From positions 1-34,505 of IMG/VR virus record IMGVR_UViG_3300047362_001095: a stretch of 34,505 nucleotides of DNA. One strand, written 5' to 3'. The stretch comes from a virus. Of this stretch, positions 16,335 to 34,205 are shown piece by piece (the stretch's first letter is position 1; each line of letters begins with the position of its first letter). Below the pieces are notes generated by a model. That model was not told where the DNA came from, did no database searches, and saw nothing but the letters and a program-made list of their open reading frames with translations. Made by a program: the position numbers and the translations under genes.

Positions 16335-17552
16335 ATGAAAACTAATAATTGTATATTGGCAGATCAGGGCTTGCATCTACACAACAGTGGAAGATGCAAC
16401 AGTTGTAGCGACAGTCAGTCATATTGGACTGATGACCAAAACAACCCAATGGATTTAACTACACATTCTTTAGAAGAAATATGGAACAGTAAGAGTAGAC
16501 AGGACTTTTTGGAAGATCTTCGTAACGGTATCGATCATCCAAACTGTGAAAAGTGTTGGCAAAAAGAGCGTGTTGGTATAAAAAGCAAAAGACAAATCAG
16601 CAATGAGCTGTGGCAGTTAAATGATAAACAAACACCTCAATATATTGACTTAAAATGGGGCAATGTGTGCAACTTAAAATGTCGACATTGCAATCCGTGG
16701 ACCAGTAGTAAATGGCTAAAAGATTGGTATGAGATTGAACGAAATGGTGTCCAGGACTATAAAGATTATCTTAATGAGTTTAGATCAACACAAAAAAGCT
16801 ATCACTCAGACAACAGAGATAATTTCCACACTACATTTAACCAATGGTTTGCTGATAGCAAACATATAATGCTGTATGGCGGCGAAGGAATGTATGTTAA
16901 AGATGTACAACGTATGTTTTCGCATGCGGTAGCAAATGGTAACAGCAAAGATATTGATGTTTATATCAATACCAATGGCACAATCTACAGTGAAGAATGG
17001 ATTGAGTTGTTGAGTAATTTTCGCAGTGTACGAATGGCATTTAGTATTGACGGAACACACGATAGTTTTGATTACATACGATCCGGTGCTAACTGGAATC
17101 AAGTAGTTGAGAATTATAAAAAGTATTCGTTAATTGACAACATACAAACACAAATTGTCACAACAGTGTTTACTTTAAATGTATACGATATTGTAGATAT
17201 ATTGCGCACATTGTATGATACATTAGATACTGTACCTGCTGTAAACTTTGTATATGGTCCATTGTGGTGGGATATAAGAATACTACCCGATGATATTAAG
17301 AAAAAGATACATGACTATCACAGCACCTTACTAAATAAGTCTATACACGAATTGCCAACTGGCATATTTGAAAATATCAAGCTTGAAGTTAAAAAAGTAC
17401 ACGACTTTTTGTTTGATAATATAGACGATAGCGACAAAAAATTTAACACAATGAAACAATGGATCAATGGTGTTGATTTGCAAAGACAGGAAAAATTTGA
17501 TAAAGTTTTTCCTGATTATAACAAAATACTAAAGGTATACAATGACAATTGA
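16335..17552 (+). CDS. N-terminal-twitch radical SAM protein (1 of 3)
   Basis: A 405-residue iron-sulfur enzyme. The radical SAM motif is CNLKCRHC (C112, C116, C119) with YGGEG near residue 180 and INTNGT downstream. Before it lies a Cys-containing region (C6, C21, C24, C71, C74 with HNSGRCNSCS and CEKC) that resembles the auxiliary-cluster twitch fold, here placed N-terminally rather than C-terminally. The substrate is unknown; SPASM/twitch enzymes often modify peptides. The start lacks a clear Shine-Dalgarno and lies about 20 bases after a late promoter start. It overlaps the next gene by 11 bases. Confidence 0.88.
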   Translation: MKTNNCILADQGLHLHNSGRCNSCSDSQSYWTDDQNNPMDLTTHSLEEIWNSKSRQDFLEDLRNGIDHPNCEKCWQKERVGIKSKRQISNELWQLNDKQTPQYIDLKWGNVCNLKCRHCNPWTSSKWLKDWYEIERNGVQDYKDYLNEFRSTQKSYHSDNRDNFHTTFNQWFADSKHIMLYGGEGMYVKDVQRMFSHAVANGNSKDIDVYINTNGTIYSEEWIELLSNFRSVRMAFSIDGTHDSFDYIRSGANWNQVVENYKKYSLIDNIQTQIVTTVFTLNVYDIVDILRTLYDTLDTVPAVNFVYGPLWWDIRILPDDIKKKIHDYHSTLLNKSIHELPTGIFENIKLEVKKVHDFLFDNIDDSDKKFNTMKQWINGVDLQRQEKFDKVFPDYNKILKVYNDN

Positions 17553-18831
17553 ACAAAAACCATTTCCAATAAAAACCGAAACAGCCTGTCAGCTAAAATG
17601 GAGCCACAGTACGGTCTTTTTGACTCAAAATCAAAGCAGTAGTTGTCACCGTGTCCAAGGAACAACTATTGGCGAAGACTTTGACTTTCACAATACACCT
17701 GCTAAACTTCTTGATAGAGAAAAAATGCTTCAAGGTGAGTGGCCTGGCAGAGGTTGCGAGCATTGCAAGGAAATTGAAGATGCTGGTGGACAAAGCGACA
17801 GAATGTTGCACTTAAACTTTCCTGGATTAGGAGCTCCTCCGGAAGTTGCAGCTGGGGACTTAACAGCAACAAATGTTACACCACGTTGGTTAGAAATTTA
17901 TTTTAGTAATTTATGTAATTTGAGTTGCTTGTATTGTGGGGAACATTTTAGTAGTAGTTGGCAGAGCGAAAACAAAAAGTTTGGTCATATTACTACAGCA
18001 ATGGAGATGGGTGAACCTCCAGAAATGGACTACGCTAAAAATGTAGAAACCGGAAGCGAAAAGTTGTTCAAATGGCTAGATAAAAACGTTCATCATTTGT
18101 ACAATTTGATGATTCTTGGCGGAGAACCTTTTACACAGCCTCAATCAGATCAACTATTAGATTTTCTTGGAACTAGGCACAATCCAAATCTTACATTGAC
18201 ATTTTTTAGTAATTTAAGTATTGACCACGAGCGTATGAAAAAACGATTCAAAAAAATGCAGGATCTTAAAGACAACGGTCACTTGGCTGAGATTCATATT
18301 ATTGCCAGTCTCGACGGCTGGGGTCCTGAAATCGAATATGTACGCTCCGGGCTAGATTTATCGCTATTTGAAAAAAATATGAACCATCTTGTGTATGAAA
18401 CAGATGTTCGTCTCGGAATAAACGCAGCCTGGATGAGCTTGTCAACATCTACTATGCCTGAGTTGATTAGAAAAATCAACAACTGGAGTACCAACCAGCG
18501 CCCGATATTTTTTAGCTTAATGCAAGCAGCCGGAAACAAATATGTGCATCCAGATATCTTTGGACCTAAGGTTTTAGATTGGGGATATAGAGAAGCAGTA
18601 GAAATGTTCGAAACACAAGGCAACAATGTTAAAGAAGGTTATAAGACTTACCTCGAGGGCATTATGAAGAAAATCGAAAATTCTCAGCCAGACATAGAAG
18701 CACAAAAGGCATTGCACAAATATTTAACTATATTAGATGAACGTCGCGGAACCAACTATAAAACTCTTTTTCCAGATATCTACGAAGAAATTAAAAAATC
18801 TTTACAATTAAACAGTGAGCCCAATGAATGA
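17542..18831 (+). CDS. N-terminal-twitch radical SAM protein (2 of 3)
   Basis: A 429-residue paralogue of the upstream gene. N-terminal cysteines C16, C35, C72 and C75 (GCEHC) precede CNLSCLYC (C125, C129, C132), then ILGGEPF (the GGEP SAM-binding motif) and ASLDGWG. The C-terminal 60 residues are helical and charged, ending EPNE. The start is inside the previous gene and the end overlaps the third radical SAM gene by 8 bases, so the three are co-translated. Substrate unknown. Confidence 0.9.
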   Translation: MTIEQKPFPIKTETACQLKWSHSTVFLTQNQSSSCHRVQGTTIGEDFDFHNTPAKLLDREKMLQGEWPGRGCEHCKEIEDAGGQSDRMLHLNFPGLGAPPEVAAGDLTATNVTPRWLEIYFSNLCNLSCLYCGEHFSSSWQSENKKFGHITTAMEMGEPPEMDYAKNVETGSEKLFKWLDKNVHHLYNLMILGGEPFTQPQSDQLLDFLGTRHNPNLTLTFFSNLSIDHERMKKRFKKMQDLKDNGHLAEIHIIASLDGWGPEIEYVRSGLDLSLFEKNMNHLVYETDVRLGINAAWMSLSTSTMPELIRKINNWSTNQRPIFFSLMQAAGNKYVHPDIFGPKVLDWGYREAVEMFETQGNNVKEGYKTYLEGIMKKIENSQPDIEAQKALHKYLTILDERRGTNYKTLFPDIYEEIKKSLQLNSEPNE

Positions 18832-19855
18832 TCTTCGTTCCCATATACCTGACGATAAAAAGTGGCTTGCTGAAAACTTAATTGTAGACTTTGGTAAGCC
18901 CAAAAGCCTCAACTTGTTTTGCAAAGATCCGTTTGACGGATGTAGCATTGATCGTTTTGGTAGTGTATTTGTTTGCACGTGCGATGGAAAATTGCCTGTC
19001 AGTGTTGGCCATATTATGGACTTTGAATCACTAGAACAGATATGGACAAATGATATTGCCCAACAACTACAGCAAACCATACTAGAGCAAAAGTTTACCT
19101 ACTGTGATGTAAACAATTGTGGTATACTTCATAGCAATACTGCGGATGCAGACAGTTACTTTAAAAGTCACAGAAGAAAAGAAATATTCTTAAACATTGA
19201 CGAAAGTTGTAACCTACAATGTCCTAGTTGTAGAGACACAATGATTTATATCAAAAATGGTCAGCAATACACAGATAAAATAAAATGGGTCAATCACTTT
19301 CACGATCTGCTTAAACAATATGACGGCGCACTAGACTTGTATACCAGCGGAAATGGCGATCCATTTGCTAGTGAAATATACCAAGAGTTTTTGCTTACTT
19401 GCAAATTAAAAAGTAGTCAAAAGTTTAATTTTCTTACAAACGGATTACTGCTTAGACAACGCTTTAGTGAAAATCCTTATTTGGTTAAAAACACCAGTCT
19501 CATAATGATAAGTATCGATGCCGGGAGTAAAGAAGTATACGAAGATGTACGCCGCCCTGGTAAATGGGAAAAGTTAGTGGATAACTTGGACTGCTTACAC
19601 ACACTGTCAAAACAAGGTATTTCTGCGCAGTTGAATTTTGTAATACAACGTGCCAATTATCAAGACATACCGAATTTTATTGAATTAGCGAAAAAATATG
19701 AATTCAGAACACACTACGCTTTGCTAGAAGATTGGCGCACGTTCGACGGAGGATTCTATAAAGAAAACGCTGTACATGAAGAAAGTCACCCTGATCACCA
19801 AAGCTGGTTAAGAATTTACAATATGTTTGAAGATAAGATCAACTTAGCCAGATAA
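18824..19855 (+). CDS. N-terminal-twitch radical SAM protein (3 of 3)
   Basis: A 343-residue protein with an especially clear N-terminal auxiliary-cluster region: LFCKDPF (C33), C40, GSVFVCTC (C51, C53), C94 and C99. The radical SAM motif CNLQCPSC follows (C129, C133, C136), with TSGNGDPF in place of GGEP and LTNGLL after it. The ATG at 18824 is chosen over an upstream in-frame GTG because it overlaps the previous stop closely. Divergent from its two neighbours, so the three probably do different steps or act on different substrates. Confidence 0.88.
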   Translation: MNDLRSHIPDDKKWLAENLIVDFGKPKSLNLFCKDPFDGCSIDRFGSVFVCTCDGKLPVSVGHIMDFESLEQIWTNDIAQQLQQTILEQKFTYCDVNNCGILHSNTADADSYFKSHRRKEIFLNIDESCNLQCPSCRDTMIYIKNGQQYTDKIKWVNHFHDLLKQYDGALDLYTSGNGDPFASEIYQEFLLTCKLKSSQKFNFLTNGLLLRQRFSENPYLVKNTSLIMISIDAGSKEVYEDVRRPGKWEKLVDNLDCLHTLSKQGISAQLNFVIQRANYQDIPNFIELAKKYEFRTHYALLEDWRTFDGGFYKENAVHEESHPDHQSWLRIYNMFEDKINLAR

Positions 19856-19869
19856 CAAAAGGAAAAGAT

Positions 19870-20148
19870 ATGTGGGAAACAATATCAAGAATGTCTACTG
19901 ATACACTGTGGATTTATACAGCAATCGCAGGAAGTATATTCGGTGCGTTATTCGTTTACTGGATAAAAGATACATACATTGCTTTTTGGGCAATAAACAA
20001 ATGGCAATCAACATTAGACTTTTTAGTCAATCGTTGGGGCTGGACTTGGTTCAAGCATAATCCAGATGCATGGAAGGCAGCTAATCCAAAACTTACAAAG
20101 AAAATTGAAGAACTAGAATCACGTATATCAAATCTCGAAGGAAAATAA
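19870..20148 (+). CDS. Small Trp-rich membrane protein with coiled-coil tail
   Basis: A 92-residue protein: one membrane helix at about 14-33 (LWIYTAIAGSIFGALFVYWI), a Trp-rich amphipathic middle (AFWAINKWQ, RWGWTWFKHNPDAW) and a coiled coil at the end (LTKKIEELESRISNLEGK). AAAGGAAAAG precedes the ATG. It lies directly after the radical SAM trio and before the transporter, so it could anchor or couple them, but no homologue is recognised. Confidence 0.7.
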   Translation: MWETISRMSTDTLWIYTAIAGSIFGALFVYWIKDTYIAFWAINKWQSTLDFLVNRWGWTWFKHNPDAWKAANPKLTKKIEELESRISNLEGK

Positions 20149-20150
20149 TA

Positions 20151-20270
20151 ATGGATATGGAACATTATTGCAGAGTACTAAAAGAACACGAAGCACGTAG
20201 AGCCAGCACAAATGAACGAAATATGTACTGGGCACGTTATCAAAAAGAAAGCAAGGAAAACAATGTTTAA
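20151..20270 (+). CDS. Small 39-residue charged ORF between radical SAM and SbmA genes
   Basis: ATG two bases after the preceding stop, with AAGGAAAA upstream. The peptide starts MDMEHYCRVLKEHEARRAS, has a single Cys, is strongly charged and helical, and ends KESKENNV. Its stop overlaps the start of the transporter gene (ATGTTTAA). As a short peptide-coding gene between modifying enzymes and a peptide transporter it is a candidate substrate, though it lacks a recognisable leader/core division. Confidence 0.55.
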   Translation: MDMEHYCRVLKEHEARRASTNERNMYWARYQKESKENNV

Positions 20271-21237
20271 TTTTTTCAAAGTACGCAAGTGGCTATTATG
20301 GAGCTGGTTGGGTACAATTATTATTTTAAGTTCTCTTTGGGTACAGGTTGAAATTGATGTTAAAATCAACGAATGGTTTGGTCAATTTTACAACATGATC
20401 CAAGCAGCACTGGCAGAACCAAATGCTATTACAATAGGTGAATACTGGGCAAGTCTTGGTAGTTTTATTTCGCTAGCTGCCCTTTACGTTGCCATTGCTG
20501 TGGTAGTGAGTTATTTTACATCGCACTATCTGTTCCGTTGGAGAGCAAGTATGGTTGAATGGTATCACAGTGTGTACGATAAAGCTCGTACAATTGAAGG
20601 AGCCGCACAGCGTGTACAGGAAGATACTATTAAGTTTAGTCGCATTATGGAGGGGTTGGGCACAAGTTTTATTGAATCGATTATGGTTTTAGTACAGTTT
20701 GTTCCTATACTACTAGGACTAAGTGTTGGTATTCCAATCTTCTTCTTTGGTGATTGGCAGTATGGATTAGTAACAGGTGCTCTTATATGGAGTATCGGCG
20801 GTACAATCTTTTTAATAATGTTAGGTTGGTTATTGCGTCTAGTCGGAGTAGAATATGATCTACAAAAGAAAGAAGCAGCATATCGTAAGATACTTGTTAT
20901 TGCTGAGGACGATGAAAACATAAGACCAAAAACAATTAATGAATTGTTTAACGATGTACGTGGTATTCACTTTAAAAGTTATTTACGCTACTTGTATTTT
21001 AACATAGGGCGTGTTGCGTATCTACAAGCAAACGTATTAAGTGCGTATGTATTCCTAGCACCGGCTATTGTAGCAGGAGCAGTAACACTTGGCGTTATGC
21101 AACAGATTATTCGTGCGTTTGGGCGTGTCGAAGGATCAATGCAGTATTTGTTCAAAGCATGGCCTACACTGATTGAATTGATGAGTGTGTACAAGCGTCT
21201 AAGAGAATTTGAGCGCCAAATTAAAGAGCTTGATTAA
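20263..21237 (+). CDS. SbmA/BacA-family peptide transporter, N-terminally short
   Basis: Inner-membrane importer of peptides (microcins, bleomycin, host defence peptides) in bacteria, driven by the proton gradient. The 324 residues carry family hallmarks: YLFRWRASMVEWY, IEGAAQRVQEDT, EAAYRKILVIAEDD, YFNIGRVAYLQ and LIELMSVYKRLREFE. E. coli SbmA is 406 residues; here about 80 N-terminal residues including the first membrane helix are missing. The ATG at 20263 is preferred because AAGGAAAA precedes it and the peptide upstream of it is unlike the family. It follows the radical SAM trio. Identity is firm; direction and substrate in infected cells are unknown. Confidence 0.92.
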   Translation: MFNFFKVRKWLLWSWLGTIIILSSLWVQVEIDVKINEWFGQFYNMIQAALAEPNAITIGEYWASLGSFISLAALYVAIAVVVSYFTSHYLFRWRASMVEWYHSVYDKARTIEGAAQRVQEDTIKFSRIMEGLGTSFIESIMVLVQFVPILLGLSVGIPIFFFGDWQYGLVTGALIWSIGGTIFLIMLGWLLRLVGVEYDLQKKEAAYRKILVIAEDDENIRPKTINELFNDVRGIHFKSYLRYLYFNIGRVAYLQANVLSAYVFLAPAIVAGAVTLGVMQQIIRAFGRVEGSMQYLFKAWPTLIELMSVYKRLREFERQIKELD

Positions 21238-21302: not shown

Positions 21303-21518
21303 ATGTCAGACGCTGAACTCAAGTTCGCAAATGAACTGCATTACGCAGTCAAGGGTCATCTCATCAATCCTAATTATAGTGATGAGGAAATCAGAAAAAT
21401 AAAAGACAGTTATCTAAAACGCTTGTGGGGAAACCATGAGCGTTTAGTTAATTGTAGCGACGACTTTGAAAAGGCATGGACGCAGTGCATAGCCAAAAAA
21501 ACTCTTGACAATGCCTAA
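21303..21518 (+). CDS. Small helical protein (71 residues), unknown
   Basis: Soluble, charged, helical protein with one clear ribosome binding site (GAGGA) before the ATG. It has two Cys and no recognisable motif. The end of the gene overlaps the -35 region of the tmRNA promoter (TTGACA at 21505). A weak late-type element GTAAATAA lies at 21270-21277. Confidence 0.7.
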   Translation: MSDAELKFANELHYAVKGHLINPNYSDEEIRKIKDSYLKRLWGNHERLVNCSDDFEKAWTQCIAKKTLDNA

Positions 21519-21536
21519 AAAGTAGTGTTATAAATA
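21505..21536 (+). promoter_or_regulatory. tmRNA promoter: TTGACA and TATAAATA combined
   Basis: TTGACA (21505-21510), an 18-base spacer, and TATAAATA (21529-21536). The latter is both a host-type -10 (TATAAA) and an exact T4 late element. Start predicted near 21542. Confidence 0.7.
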
Positions 21537-21541
21537 TACTG

Positions 21542-21815
21542 TAACGTTGAAGCAATTCAAACGCTATACTGGACCCGGGGGCGGTACCCGGCGACTCCAC
21601 CATAAACACATTTACCGAGTGTGCTTATGATGGGGTCGAAATAGGATCGACAGGTAGTTAATAGAGTTAGTGGAGTTACCGGGATGTAAGCGCCGTTACC
21701 GCGAACGAACTTTATAATTGCAAATGACAATTATGCGCCAGAGATGGCATTAGCAGCCTAAGGGTATGTGGGGGAGGGTACTGCCTAGCAACAGAAGTGC
21801 CACCGCTACAATATA
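21542..21815 (+). ncRNA. ssrA: Circularly permuted (two-piece) tmRNA
   Basis: Rescues stalled ribosomes by trans-translation. The 3' (acceptor) half comes first: T-stem CCGGG/CCCGG (21575-21579/21587-21591) with a 7-base loop GGCGGTA, then acceptor strand CGACTCC and encoded ACCA (21592-21602). After a 29-base spacer the coding half starts GGGGTCG (21632-21638), which pairs with CGACTCC over seven positions (one G-U). The tag ORF at 21720-21761 reads ANDNYAPEMALAA then TAA, a proper ssrA-type tag. GC-rich pseudoknot-like sequence follows to about 21815. This permuted order is typical of alphaproteobacteria (also some cyanobacteria and betaproteobacteria). Outer ends are approximate. Confidence 0.93.
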
Positions 21816-21890: not shown

Positions 21891-22244
21891 ATGACAAAGC
21901 CAATTGGCTGGGAAACCACTATTACTGAATTAGTAAACATTCCGCGAGATATGTGGAATAGTATTATGACAGTTGAAAATTCACCACTAAAAAACTTAGA
22001 CCCAATGGTAGGACACATGATCTTCCAATGCTTGTTCTTTGTTTGGAGTGGACTGTTTGCTGTAATGGTAGGCAGCTATTATATCTTCGGTATTAGTGCG
22101 TTATTTCATATGGCACTAGTAAGTGGAATTACAATTACATTAGTAACATTTCGTACCGCAGAAAAAAATCCAGAGTCGCTTAACAAACTACTAAAGTCTG
22201 GTCGCAAATACACTGGTCGTGGCGCCGGAGGCGAACATGAGTAA
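21891..22244 (+). CDS. Two-helix membrane protein (117 residues), unknown
   Basis: Two hydrophobic segments (about 45-68, MIFQCLFFVWSGLFAVMVGSYY, and 70-92) flanked by soluble ends; the C-terminus is basic and Gly-rich (GRKYTGRGAGGEHE). A host-type promoter and AGGAG site precede it. It overlaps the next membrane protein by 8 bases, so the two may form a complex. Early position and membrane location would suit host-envelope modification, but no family is recognised. Confidence 0.75.
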   Translation: MTKPIGWETTITELVNIPRDMWNSIMTVENSPLKNLDPMVGHMIFQCLFFVWSGLFAVMVGSYYIFGISALFHMALVSGITITLVTFRTAEKNPESLNKLLKSGRKYTGRGAGGEHE

Positions 22245-22401
22245 TCCAAACTTTAACGGGTTAGTATGGGCGTTTTTAGCAGTCATTTTAACTTTAACTG
22301 TATTGCCAATTGGTATTACTATACTTACACTGGGTGTAGATGATTATGCTAGCAATTGTAAGCAAGCAATTCATATGCCTTGCTTTGGGTTAGTTGATTA
22401 G
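22237..22401 (+). CDS. Single-helix membrane protein (54 residues)
   Basis: Starts within the preceding gene (MSNPNFNGLVW) and has one membrane helix (FLAVILTLTVLPIGITILTL), then a short tail with two Cys (SNCKQ, MPCFG). The ATG at 22237 is chosen over an upstream in-frame start. The next ATG follows the stop immediately (TAGATG). Probably acts with the upstream membrane protein. Confidence 0.7.
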   Translation: MSNPNFNGLVWAFLAVILTLTVLPIGITILTLGVDDYASNCKQAIHMPCFGLVD

Positions 22402-22593
22402 ATGGATTATACAATTCTAAATAAACAAACAGGCGAAACATTCACAATGAAGTTTTCCAACAAGTCGCAGTTGATAACATGGCTAGCCGAAACAGGATGG
22501 GAATGCCTAGGCAGAACTACGAGCTATTTGCCAACTAGGCATGTACGAATGCAACCCGAACAACAAGAAGAATTTGCTGGCTGGGGCAGTTAA
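22402..22593 (+). CDS. Small soluble protein (63 residues), unknown
   Basis: Begins MDYTILNKQTGETFTMKF directly after the preceding stop. Trp-containing mixed alpha/beta composition, no membrane segment and no recognised motif. Belongs to the operon from 21891. Confidence 0.7.
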   Translation: MDYTILNKQTGETFTMKFSNKSQLITWLAETGWECLGRTTSYLPTRHVRMQPEQQEEFAGWGS

Positions 22594-22629
22594 CTCACCA
22601 GCATAAAATTTAAACATAAAGGATAAGAA

Positions 22630-23049
22630 ATGATTAAACTAATGACAGCACTAGGTCTTATTCTCGCCCTTGTCACACCGGCACTCGCAGAGGATTTGAC
22701 AATTGAAATGCTCAATAAACGTGAGGACGGTGCCAAGATGGTATACTCACAAGAAGTTGCCACTATCGAAGTTGGCGACACAATTACTTGGGTACCAACA
22801 TCAAAAGGTCACAATGTAGAATTTATTGCTGGTCCCGATGGTTGGGACGCACCACGTAAATCCAAACTCAACAAAGAAGTTTCAATTACATTTAATATGC
22901 CGGGTATCTATGTATACCAATGTTCACCTCACAAGTCAATGGGTATGATTGGCATTGTAGCAGTTGGTGACGGAGATAACGATGTATCTAAAGCCAAAGT
23001 AAGAGGCAAGTCAAAGAAAAAACTTAAAAAATTACTTGCTGAACTATAA
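22630..23049 (+). CDS. Pseudoazurin-type blue copper protein (exported)
   Basis: Periplasmic electron carrier. A 20-residue signal peptide ends ALA before EDLTIEML. The mature protein matches pseudoazurin: KREDGAKMVYSQE, then GDTITWVPTSKGHNVEFI with copper ligand H61, and YQCSPHKSMGM with C98, H101 and M106 in the family spacing. A Lys-rich tail follows. In alphaproteobacteria pseudoazurin donates electrons to nitrite or nitrous oxide reductases and can feed other oxidases. AAAGGATAAG precedes the ATG. All four ligands are intact, so it should bind copper. It is an auxiliary metabolic gene candidate. Confidence 0.92.
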   Translation: MIKLMTALGLILALVTPALAEDLTIEMLNKREDGAKMVYSQEVATIEVGDTITWVPTSKGHNVEFIAGPDGWDAPRKSKLNKEVSITFNMPGIYVYQCSPHKSMGMIGIVAVGDGDNDVSKAKVRGKSKKKLKKLLAEL

Positions 23050-23130
23050 GATATGTCTGGAAACTTTGTAAACAAAATTCCAGAGTTTTGTATGACATAA
23101 CTCAACTGAATGTATACAAGGAAATAGAAC

Positions 23131-23340
23131 TTGAGCGGACAAAGACGCTTTTTAAAAATGTGGGCAAGAACAGTTGGAATGCCAATTGGACTTAGTGATG
23201 ATGACAAACCAGAGTTCTTGCCCATTCGACAAAAAGATGTAAGACGAGCGCTAGCGTTTAGAACGTTTTGGATCGTACTACACATATTAACCTGTTGTGC
23301 TATTATAGCAGGCAACGGCAGAACATTAGGATTTTGGTGA
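23131..23340 (+). CDS. Small membrane protein (69 residues), TTG start
   Basis: Basic N-terminal region (SGQRRFLKMWARTVG) and one hydrophobic helix near the end (FWIVLHILTCCAIIAG). TTG at 23131 with AAGGAAAT upstream is favoured; an ATG at 23158 is the alternative. The next ATG lies two bases after the stop, so it is co-transcribed. Unknown role. Confidence 0.6.
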   Translation: MSGQRRFLKMWARTVGMPIGLSDDDKPEFLPIRQKDVRRALAFRTFWIVLHILTCCAIIAGNGRTLGFW

Positions 23341-28248: not shown

Positions 28249-29025
28249 ATGAAAAATACTTTTATTGCAACTATTGCATTAACTTTAATTGCAGGTGCAG
28301 CATTTGCCGAATCACCACTTAGTGGTGAAATTGAACTAGAATTCAAAGAAAACTCAATTTCAGAAAAAATTGCCGGAACAATGGGTCTTGACCTAGGTGT
28401 TGATATGCAAGGACTAGCAGCAGTTGATCTAGACTTTGAAGTTGACGAAGATGGCAACGGATCACTAGCAGACTGGACAGTTGGTAAAACTGTAGCAGGC
28501 GTAGGCGTAGCGTTTGGCACAGACAATGGCGTAATGCCAGGTGCAGAAGGTGAGCAAACACTAGCAGCACCAGCAATGACAGAGTCACTAGCATTGTCAA
28601 TGGGCACAGCAGCAGTAGCAGTAGGCTTCACAGACTGGAACACAGACATCACAGACATTAGTAATGTACAAGGTGCATACACAATGGGTGTAGCAGGACT
28701 TGATGTAACAGCAGCAGCAGACTACAACTTGGACAGTGAAAACACTGTACTTGGCGCAGGTGTTGCAGGTGTTGAAGTAGTCGGCGTAGACCTCGGCGGC
28801 ACAATGACATACGATGTAGACGCAGAAGTATTTGGCTTCGAAGGTGTAGCAACAGCATATGGTATTACAGCATACCTAAACGGTGATGACACAGATGCAC
28901 TACAAAACGTAGGTGGTGAGTATGTGCATGGTCTAGGTGAAGGTATTGACTTGTCAGCAGGTGCTAACTATAATCTAGACACAGAAGATTTTGCTCCAAC
29001 AGCAGCCCTCAGCTTCTCATTCTAA
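28249..29025 (+). CDS. Outer-membrane beta-barrel (porin-like) protein
   Basis: A 258-residue exported protein. Signal peptide ends AFA after residue 20. The mature chain has alternating hydrophobic/polar strands with Gly-rich turns (VAGVGVAFG, AVAVGFTDWN, GVAGLDVTAAADYNLD), a second copy of the YNLD motif near the end, and terminates SFSF, the C-terminal aromatic signal used by barrel-assembly machinery. It is acidic. Its own terminator follows. Phage barrels can change the surface of an infected cell, for example to block phage adsorption or permit uptake. Function is inferred. Confidence 0.8.
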   Translation: MKNTFIATIALTLIAGAAFAESPLSGEIELEFKENSISEKIAGTMGLDLGVDMQGLAAVDLDFEVDEDGNGSLADWTVGKTVAGVGVAFGTDNGVMPGAEGEQTLAAPAMTESLALSMGTAAVAVGFTDWNTDITDISNVQGAYTMGVAGLDVTAAADYNLDSENTVLGAGVAGVEVVGVDLGGTMTYDVDAEVFGFEGVATAYGITAYLNGDDTDALQNVGGEYVHGLGEGIDLSAGANYNLDTEDFAPTAALSFSF

Positions 29026-29700: not shown

Positions 29701-30150
29701 ATGACAAGATTAACAACTCTAGACTTACCTACATTCGCTCGTGCCACTGTTGGCTTTGATAGAATGTTTGACGAAATGACACGTTCATTTGAAAACACAA
29801 AATCAAATGGTTATCCTCCATACAACATTGAACAAATCGACGAAAATGAATATATGATTTCACTTGCAGTTGCAGGCTTTGGTATGGATGACTTAGACAT
29901 TACACTGGAAAAAAATGTTTTGACAGTTGAAGGTAATGTACAAAAGACCAACGAGGGAAAAAATTATCTACACAAAGGAATTGGCGGTCGCAATTTCCGT
30001 AGACAATTTACACTAGCTGAACATATTGAAGTTGAAAGTGCAGGACTAGATTTAGGTATGCTTAATATTCACTTGGTGCGCAACGTACCTGAAGCAGAGC
30101 AACCTAAAAAAATTGCTATTTGCACACCACTAAACACAATTGAAGGCTAA
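29701..30150 (+). CDS. hsp20: Small heat-shock protein (Hsp20/IbpA-type)
   Basis: ATP-independent chaperone holding unfolded proteins. The 149 residues hold an N-terminal segment (RATVGFDRMFDEM), an alpha-crystallin domain from about 38 to 138 (PPYNIEQIDENEYMISLAVAG, LEKNVLTVEGN, IGGRNFRRQFTLAEHIEV) and a short C-terminal tail. Many T4-like marine phages carry such a gene. AAGGAG is partly paired in the leader hairpin described above. A terminator follows, so it is a single-gene unit. Confidence 0.95.
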   Translation: MTRLTTLDLPTFARATVGFDRMFDEMTRSFENTKSNGYPPYNIEQIDENEYMISLAVAGFGMDDLDITLEKNVLTVEGNVQKTNEGKNYLHKGIGGRNFRRQFTLAEHIEVESAGLDLGMLNIHLVRNVPEAEQPKKIAICTPLNTIEG

Positions 30151-30157
30151 CAGTCTA

Positions 30158-30182
30158 GGGGGGAGTAATATCCCCCCATTTT
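30158..30182 (+). terminator. Rho-independent terminator
   Basis: GGGGGGA/TCCCCCC stem with GTAATA loop, then ATTTT. Closes hsp20. Confidence 0.85.
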
Positions 30183-30195
30183 AAAAGGATAAAAA

Positions 30196-30501
30196 ATGAG
30201 CAGCAAGACTGAAACAAACGTGGCAGAAAAGACACTGATAAAGTTTTCTCCGCCCGGTGACCATAAAGTAATTTATTTAAATGATGATATAACTCCTATG
30301 GAGTTTGTTATTGAGAGCTTAGTTGATATATTTAAGCATGACTTTTCGTCTGCAGAATTGCTAACCATGAGAGTTCACGAACAAGGTAGTGCTGTTGTGG
30401 CTGTACTTCCTTTTGAAATTGCCGAACACAAGGGAATTGAAGTTACCTTATCTGCACGTAAACAAGGATATCCTTTTCAGCTAAAGATTGAACCAGAATA
30501 A
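30196..30501 (+). CDS. clpS: ClpS-like adaptor protein
   Basis: Adaptor that delivers N-degron proteins to ClpAP and shifts Clp substrate choice. The 101 residues include the conserved pocket segment YLNDDITPMEFVIESL (27-42; N29, D30, D31, T33, M35) and VHEQG with H61, followed by FEIAEHKGIEV and SARKQGYPF. All main substrate-pocket residues of the family are present, so it should bind N-degrons. AAAAGGAT precedes the ATG. It begins just after the hsp20 terminator, and the SGNH-like gene starts two bases after its stop. Confidence 0.9.
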   Translation: MSSKTETNVAEKTLIKFSPPGDHKVIYLNDDITPMEFVIESLVDIFKHDFSSAELLTMRVHEQGSAVVAVLPFEIAEHKGIEVTLSARKQGYPFQLKIEPE

Positions 30502-33125: not shown

Positions 33126-34205
33126 ATGAATAACTATATTTTTACTAGCGAAAGTGTTAGTGAAGGGCATCCGGATAAGGTTGCAGACCAAATCTCGGAC
33201 GCACTCGTTGATGCAGGGTTAAAAGCAGGCGACGAAACAACTCGTGTTGCTATTGAAACACTTGTAACTACCAATCACGTAACATTAGCAGGCGAAGTAA
33301 AAAACTTTAATGTGAGCAAAGACGAAGTCAAAGACATTGTTTGTAATACTGTTAAACGTATCGGATATGAGCAAGATGGGTTCCATTGGGATAATCTAAA
33401 CATCTACAATGAAATCCATAGCCAGAGTACCGACATTGCCTTGGGCACTGATGATTTTGGTGCAGGCGATCAAGGTATTATGTTTGGTTATGCGTGTAAC
33501 GACAACGATGCATACATGCCAGCACCAATTTACTACAGCCACGAAATACTTAAAGAACTTAAAAGTCAAAGACAGCATGTATTAGGTCCTGATGCAAAGT
33601 CACAGGTTAGTGTAGAGTATGCAGGCAGAAAAGTTAAGCGCATCGACCAAGTTGTTATTAGTACACAGCACAGCGAAGGACAAGTAGAGCAAGCAAGAAA
33701 TATTAGTAAACTTGCTGCAATGAATGTATTGGGAGATTTAATTGATGACCGCACGAAATGGCATCTTAACCCTACTGGTAACTTTGTTATTGGTGGTCCC
33801 GACGGTGATGCAGGTGTTACTGGACGCAAAATCATCGTGGATACTTACGGTGGTTTTGCTCCTCACGGCGGCGGGGCTTTTAGCGGAAAAGATCCTACAA
33901 AAGTAGATCGCAGTGCAGCCTACATAGCAAGATGGCTAGCTAAAAATGTAGTAGCAGCAGGAATGTCCAATTGGTGCCAGATTCAGCTAAGTTATGCTAT
34001 TGGTGTAAAAGAACCTACCAGCATTTATGTATACAGTGACGGCGATAGCATTTCCATCCAAGGCTTTATTAAAAAGCATATTGACTTAACGCCAAAGGGT
34101 ATTATTGATCGATTTGGTATGTTTAACTTCTATGAGTATAGTAATAACTGTGTATACGGACACTTTGGTAACAAGGATGTTCCGTGGGAGAAAATTGGCT
34201 GGTAG
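33126..34205 (+). CDS. metK: S-adenosylmethionine synthetase
   Basis: Makes SAM from methionine and ATP. The 359 residues follow bacterial MetK closely: FTSESVSEGHPDKVADQISD with the catalytic His, GAGDQGIMFGYA, PDAKSQVSVEY, VIGGPDGDAGVTGRKIIVDT, GGGAFSGKDPTKVDRSAAY and YGHFG-PWE near the end. It is about 25 residues shorter than E. coli MetK (384), by a loop and tail loss, but no active-site motif is missing. The start lacks a clear Shine-Dalgarno. With four radical SAM enzymes in this window, a phage SAM supply is the likely purpose, inferred. Confidence 0.96.
   Translation: MNNYIFTSESVSEGHPDKVADQISDALVDAGLKAGDETTRVAIETLVTTNHVTLAGEVKNFNVSKDEVKDIVCNTVKRIGYEQDGFHWDNLNIYNEIHSQSTDIALGTDDFGAGDQGIMFGYACNDNDAYMPAPIYYSHEILKELKSQRQHVLGPDAKSQVSVEYAGRKVKRIDQVVISTQHSEGQVEQARNISKLAAMNVLGDLIDDRTKWHLNPTGNFVIGGPDGDAGVTGRKIIVDTYGGFAPHGGGAFSGKDPTKVDRSAAYIARWLAKNVVAAGMSNWCQIQLSYAIGVKEPTSIYVYSDGDSISIQGFIKKHIDLTPKGIIDRFGMFNFYEYSNNCVYGHFGNKDVPWEKIGW

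Follow-up and report, generated by a model that had tools for sequence, protein, structure and literature searches.

Phage electron carriers have been known chiefly from cyanophages, where they assist photosynthesis; cupredoxins have already been found in these phages. The cyanophage plastocyanin PetE (phrog_515) is a secreted type-1 copper carrier of T4-like marine phages with photosynthetic hosts. Its gene travels with the oxidase PTOX as a carrier-plus-oxidase pair (PMC3037559). Sequence reads of viral cbb3 oxidase have also been described, in an early report (PMC3474794). The methylophage Melnitz and the pelagimyophages are likewise marine T4-like phages, with streamlined heterotroph hosts and a permuted tmRNA; no pseudoazurin or DoxX homologue of theirs was found in the phage isolate collection. 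Cellular pseudoazurins include the classical proteins (Achromobacter 1bqk, Alcaligenes 1paz, Paracoccus 1adw and Sinorhizobium 3tu6) and those of marine Alphaproteobacteria (Rhodobacteraceae MED-G08, Ascidiaceihabitans, SAR116 and SAR11), which are stand-alone chromosomal genes in genomes that mostly bear an aa3 oxidase.

Here we describe a pseudoazurin-type gene in a 34,505-base IMG/VR virus record, an incomplete genome (hereafter the window, meaning the whole stretch of DNA that was analysed). Its product resembles the classical pseudoazurins in the fold of the full mature chain (Z 19–21), the four copper ligands, the signal peptide and three of four docking lysines. Unlike them, it is virus-encoded, belongs to a distinct marine subclade and scores slightly below the cut-off of the NCBIfam pseudoazurin model TIGR02375. 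It is about 30% identical to cyanophage PetE, which belongs to another cupredoxin branch. In the phage isolate collection searched, no relative was found and only cyanophage plastocyanins matched, at about 30% identity; the open literature searched held nothing relevant on phage pseudoazurins. A pseudoazurin family in phages of presumed heterotrophic Alphaproteobacteria and linked to oxidase-like and DoxX genes, as described below, was found in neither.

The pseudoazurin gene and its copper site

An initial annotation of the window had proposed a virus-encoded pseudoazurin with a signal peptide and an intact copper site. The coordinates, the plus strand, the signal peptide and all four ligands are as it claimed, in a record that is indeed viral:

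22618–22623, + strand: likely ribosome-binding site AAAGGA, six bases ahead of the ATG (from the sequence)
22630–23049, + strand: pseudoazurin-type blue copper protein, 139 amino acids (PF00127, TIGR02375, PDB pseudoazurins, AlphaFold2 model and fold match)
22630–22689, + strand: Sec-type signal peptide of 20 residues, cleavage after A20 between ALA and ED (from the sequence)
22810–22812, + strand: codon of copper ligand H61 (sequence and alignment to 1bqk)
22921–22947, + strand: copper ligand loop with C98 (22921–22923), H101 (22930–22932) and M106 (22945–22947) (sequence, alignment and viral conservation)

The protein matches Pfam PF00127 (E 3.5e-16) and TIGR02375 (105.3 bits, E 1.5e-30), and pseudoazurins are its top matches in a sequence search of the PDB (E 5e-26); these scores greatly exceed chance. 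Because 105.3 bits lies below the TIGR02375 equivalog cut-off of 109.85 bits, we do not claim functional equivalog status; the near cellular relatives likewise score slightly below this cut-off. The AlphaFold2 model (pLDDT 86.6) has 3tu6 as its top fold match (Z 21.1, r.m.s.d. 1.2 over 119 residues). Solved pseudoazurins match it with Z 19–21 over 113–119 residues, that is, over the whole mature chain and the C-terminal helix, whereas plastocyanins reach Z 12.9 at most, over about 90 residues of the barrel only. The pseudoazurin fold is characterised by a cupredoxin barrel of about 120 residues and a C-terminal helical extension, and the model shows this arrangement; in the fold alignment, mature pseudoazurin chains start (residue 1) at its residue 21. 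Two other identities were considered and rejected: plastocyanin (TIGR02656, 38.5 bits against a cut-off of 87.85; C-terminal extension present; poorer fold match) and amicyanin (TIGR02657, 46.5 bits against 110.2). Profile scores, fold match and the tree presented below thus agree with the group named in the initial annotation.

The ligands H61, C98, H101 and M106 align residue by residue with H40, C78, H81 and M86 of Achromobacter pseudoazurin 1bqk, reproducing the His-Cys-His-Met set of a type-1 copper site with the C-x2-H-x4-M loop of the family. The motif is present in all 55 distinct viral sequences drawn from the best 80 of at least 261 contigs together with the window. The window gene is under purifying selection (dN/dS 0.07–0.18 against eight relatives), and the copper site is intact, as had been claimed. 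The reading frame encodes a complete type-1 copper protein of pseudoazurin fold with an export signal, and this protein would load copper.

Viral family, cellular relatives and host

A scan of IMG/VR yielded at least 261 contigs encoding relatives of the window pseudoazurin. The longest of these records encode a T4-type major capsid protein and are classed, from this gene content, as T4-like phages. Phylogenetic placement puts the viral sequences in one clade (SH-aLRT 96), with a single cellular row inside it on a weakly supported branch. This clade sits within that of the marine alphaproteobacterial pseudoazurins (SH-aLRT 100), and 20 classical pseudoazurins are placed apart from both; the alignment has few columns and the inner branching of the tree is uncertain. 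Three contigs (L082, L091 and L092) assigned to metagenome-assembled genomes (MAGs) of Muricauda, Neomarinimicrobiota and Rhodobacteraceae resemble phage DNA, a sign of misbinning, and were counted as viral; of these, L091 has a viral-type sequence that falls outside the viral clade.

With misbinned phage contigs set aside, the cellular relatives found are marine Alphaproteobacteria, except for one in a MAG labelled Gammaproteobacteria (L108). They are 45–67% identical to the window protein, the closest being Rhodobacteraceae (61–67%), followed by Rhodospirillaceae/Rhizobiales-type, SAR116 and SAR11 sequences. Acquisition of this gene type by T4-like phages from marine Alphaproteobacteria is the best explanation of these relationships.

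Other genes of the window bear on the host. A permuted, two-piece tmRNA of alphaproteobacterial type lies at 21501–21807 on the + strand (RF01849, 135.6 bits; not detected by ARAGORN) and is also carried by the related phages L032, L045 and L023. Because a SAR11-like tmRNA also occurs in Melnitz, a methylophage with a gammaproteobacterial host (PMC9004378), the tmRNA alone is not proof of host, and we rejected it as such. The window also encodes an SbmA/BacA peptide transporter (20212–21237, + strand) that is 80–84% identical to SAR11 and SAR116 homologues; among phage isolates, four records match it, all at less than 60% identity. The host indicated by these sequences is likely a marine alphaproteobacterium. 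An inner-membrane peptide uptake protein such as SbmA/BacA is an unusual phage gene. Two further observations concern related phages: a glutamine riboswitch (RF01739) at 20145–20193 of L032, as reported for Melnitz, and small DUF1127 proteins (PF06568) near the pseudoazurin in about 16 viral contigs, including L021, L048 and L062. DUF1127 is common in Alphaproteobacteria.

Subunit-IV-like and DoxX neighbours

In related phages, the gene directly upstream of the pseudoazurin often encodes a protein that is about 70 residues long and has a single transmembrane (TM) segment, and the gene directly downstream often encodes a DoxX-family membrane protein. The corresponding part of the window reads as follows:

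21891–22244, + strand: small membrane protein with two hydrophobic stretches (its profile occurs in 53 of 84 loci around viral pseudoazurins)
22237–22401, + strand: small one-TM protein conserved in the neighbourhood (cluster 4, 32 contigs)
22402–22593, + strand: small soluble protein encoded immediately ahead of the pseudoazurin and conserved around it (cluster 22, 11 contigs)
23053–23100, + strand: 5' remnant of the viral DoxX gene, MSGNFVNKIPEFCMT then stop (15 codons plus stop)
23119–23134, + strand: 3' remnant of the viral DoxX gene (DNA comparison)

The protein at 21891–22244 has a distant homologue in Melnitz and matched no Pfam family convincingly.

All 11 sampled upstream proteins match PF07835 (COX4_pro_2, aa3-type cytochrome c oxidase subunit IV), the best at 24.8 bits against a cut-off of 22; many members of the family score below the cut-off. 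Exactly one PF07835-matching place is held by 16 of 20 long viral records, six above the cut-off. By profile search, 63 of 84 loci have a COX4_pro_2-like gene, always on the pseudoazurin strand, and in 41 of 82 it lies no more than 150 bp upstream. Profile comparison (hhalign) of the viral proteins with host subunit IV gave 94.7% probability, P 5.7e-8 and 38% identity over 29 columns; a search of the PDB with the viral profile found no subunit IV chain. By these matches, the neighbour gene reads as encoding a relative of aa3 oxidase subunit IV.

The match is nevertheless short, at about 29 residues and one TM segment, and the viral proteins have an additional invariant cysteine where the TM helix ends; in most sequences its surroundings resemble a lipobox. 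This cysteine could belong to a lipobox, and the subunit-IV reading would then be weaker: the protein would be a viral lipoprotein or generic one-TM protein, the cluster a set of host-takeover membrane genes and the oxidase link accidental. Although the weakness of the match in many members fits such a protein too, every sampled member matches PF07835, the matching place is one per record and near or adjoining the pseudoazurin, and the profile comparison is significant, so that we consider an accidental link somewhat unlikely. Basic residues (K/R) before the TM segment and acidic ones (D/E) after it suggest that the viral subunit-IV-like protein exposes its extra tail to the periplasm.

The DoxX assignment rests on PF07681, matched by 12 of 12 members (best E 1.1e-8). 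DoxX is present in 58 of 84 pseudoazurin loci on the pseudoazurin strand (profile search), and the reverse test found a pseudoazurin inside the fetched flank in 71 of 80 viral DoxX loci, part of these contigs being common to the first pseudoazurin set. In some phages the order of the pseudoazurin, subunit-IV-like and DoxX genes is shuffled, with the genes remaining within about 1.6 kb. Close DoxX relatives occur in 2 of 15 cellular genomes, both times on the pseudoazurin contig. The AlphaFold2 model of the viral DoxX protein shows four long helices at low confidence (59) and was set aside as a fold-search query.

The window holds a reduced version of this arrangement. Profile search detected no subunit-IV-like gene in it, and the only window match of the DoxX profile is the 5' remnant (13.7 bits, E 0.17). 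The remnants were traced by DNA comparison with L002 and L009; relative to L002, about 340 bp between them are missing, and the window DoxX gene is the remnant of a deletion. The window pseudoazurin is intact and constrained, so it seems to be of use on its own, unless the other two genes lie elsewhere in the incomplete genome.

Proposed role and alternatives

We lean towards a role as a virus-encoded, secreted, iron-free carrier supplying electrons to the aa3 oxidase of the host, the partner being presumed from gene content. The protein would be exported via Sec during infection and would load copper in the periplasm. There it would accept electrons from the bc1 complex, or from another donor in the periplasm, and pass them to the aa3-type cytochrome c oxidase; as a shuttle free of haem and iron, it would supplement the c-type cytochromes or take their place. 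Such shuttling could go on while host gene expression is shut down, presumably to the benefit of the phage. A copper carrier needs neither haem nor the cytochrome c maturation system, which suits iron-poor seawater. Maintenance of periplasmic electron flow during infection, as suggested in the initial annotation, is the most reasonable use, with donor and acceptor both putative.

In many related phages the pseudoazurin would form one piece of a small respiratory cassette, together with the subunit-IV-related one-TM protein and the DoxX-family protein. A respiratory-takeover cassette, made up of pseudoazurin, viral subunit IV and DoxX, in marine T4-like phages that infect heterotrophic Alphaproteobacteria is a tentative proposal. 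No more firmly, and by analogy, we suggest that this cassette might re-route or sustain host O2 respiration as a counterpart of cyanophage petE/PTOX, which parallels the pairing of viral pseudoazurin and oxidase-like gene (PMC3037559). In cellular genomes, the pseudoazurin of the marine clade is not adjacent to oxidase genes; the phage gene differs in its association with subunit-IV-like and DoxX genes. A respiratory role, if true, would extend phage electron carriers to aerobic respiration and to phages of abundant ocean heterotrophs, using an iron-sparing protein in an iron-poor environment, and the regular linkage of the gene with oxidase-like and DoxX genes points to a specific, testable partner.

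The gene content of 15 genomes holding the nearest cellular relatives bears on the partner. Being mostly MAGs and single-amplified genomes (SAGs), these may be incomplete, and absence of a gene is therefore not final for any single genome. The aa3 oxidase CtaD was matched in 13 of 15, over the cut-off in 12. Unlike the classical pseudoazurin setting, NirK over the cut-off and the cbb3 oxidase CcoN were each found in 0 of 15, and there was no convincing cd1 NirS (weak partial matches in two genomes, to proteins of 329–349 residues). The initial annotation had described a carrier of respiratory/denitrification type; the respiratory half fits, whereas the denitrification half is not supported by the gene content of these genomes. 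No Cytochrom_C match was seen in 22 viral records.

Donation to NirK, cd1 NirS or NosZ of low-oxygen hosts would fit the fold and ligand loop, which are those of classical pseudoazurins. The lysines K10, K38, K57 and K77 of the classical chain are implicated by docking studies; alignment to 1bqk shows the first three kept as K30, K59 and K77 of the window protein, whereas the fourth is Gln in the viral proteins (Q97 of the window protein). Gene neighbours also separate the two groups. Within 1.5 kb of classical pseudoazurins, 49 proteins include NnrS (3), ApbE (2), Crp-like regulators (2) and NosL (1), whereas NnrS, NosL, ApbE and Crp/Fnr-type regulators are absent from the listed families of 91 marine-clade neighbours, and the viral clade lies outside the clade having NnrS, NosL and ApbE neighbours. 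No denitrification cassette was seen in the phage. Together with the missing reductases and cbb3 oxidase, this makes a denitrification role quite unlikely, although some SAR11 are reported to have a pseudoazurin adjoining nirK and cbb3 genes (PMC12816887).

The carrier might instead be reduced by host dehydrogenases or oxidases in the periplasm, aiding catabolism during infection. At SAR116 loci such as L099 (6357–7971), the pseudoazurin relative adjoins a urate oxidase-type membrane protein (N-terminal domain) and a small transthyretin-like protein; together these two might act as electron donors. This neighbourhood is limited to one SAR116 subgroup, however, and no dehydrogenase gene is conserved adjoining the viral pseudoazurin, which leaves such a role improbable. 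We likewise attach little probability to a periplasmic copper buffer or trap (protecting the cell or scavenging for virus or oxidase) or, in a variant, a donor of copper to the oxidase with DoxX and the subunit-IV-like protein aiding assembly: a single-copper protein, membrane proteins as neighbours and one classical relative near CopB would suit it, but every copy conserves the ligand loop, and the genes recognised adjoining the viral gene include no copper exporter or chaperone.

Further genes of the window lie on the + strand. A secreted, porin-like beta-barrel protein (28249–29025) has no match among phage isolates and has relatives near the pseudoazurin in about 20 related viral contigs. 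By eye, four proteins (1180–2181 and 16335–19855) resemble radical-SAM/SPASM enzymes in their cysteine motif, and the genes at 29701–30501 and 33126–34205 read as Hsp20, a ClpS adaptor and S-adenosylmethionine synthetase.
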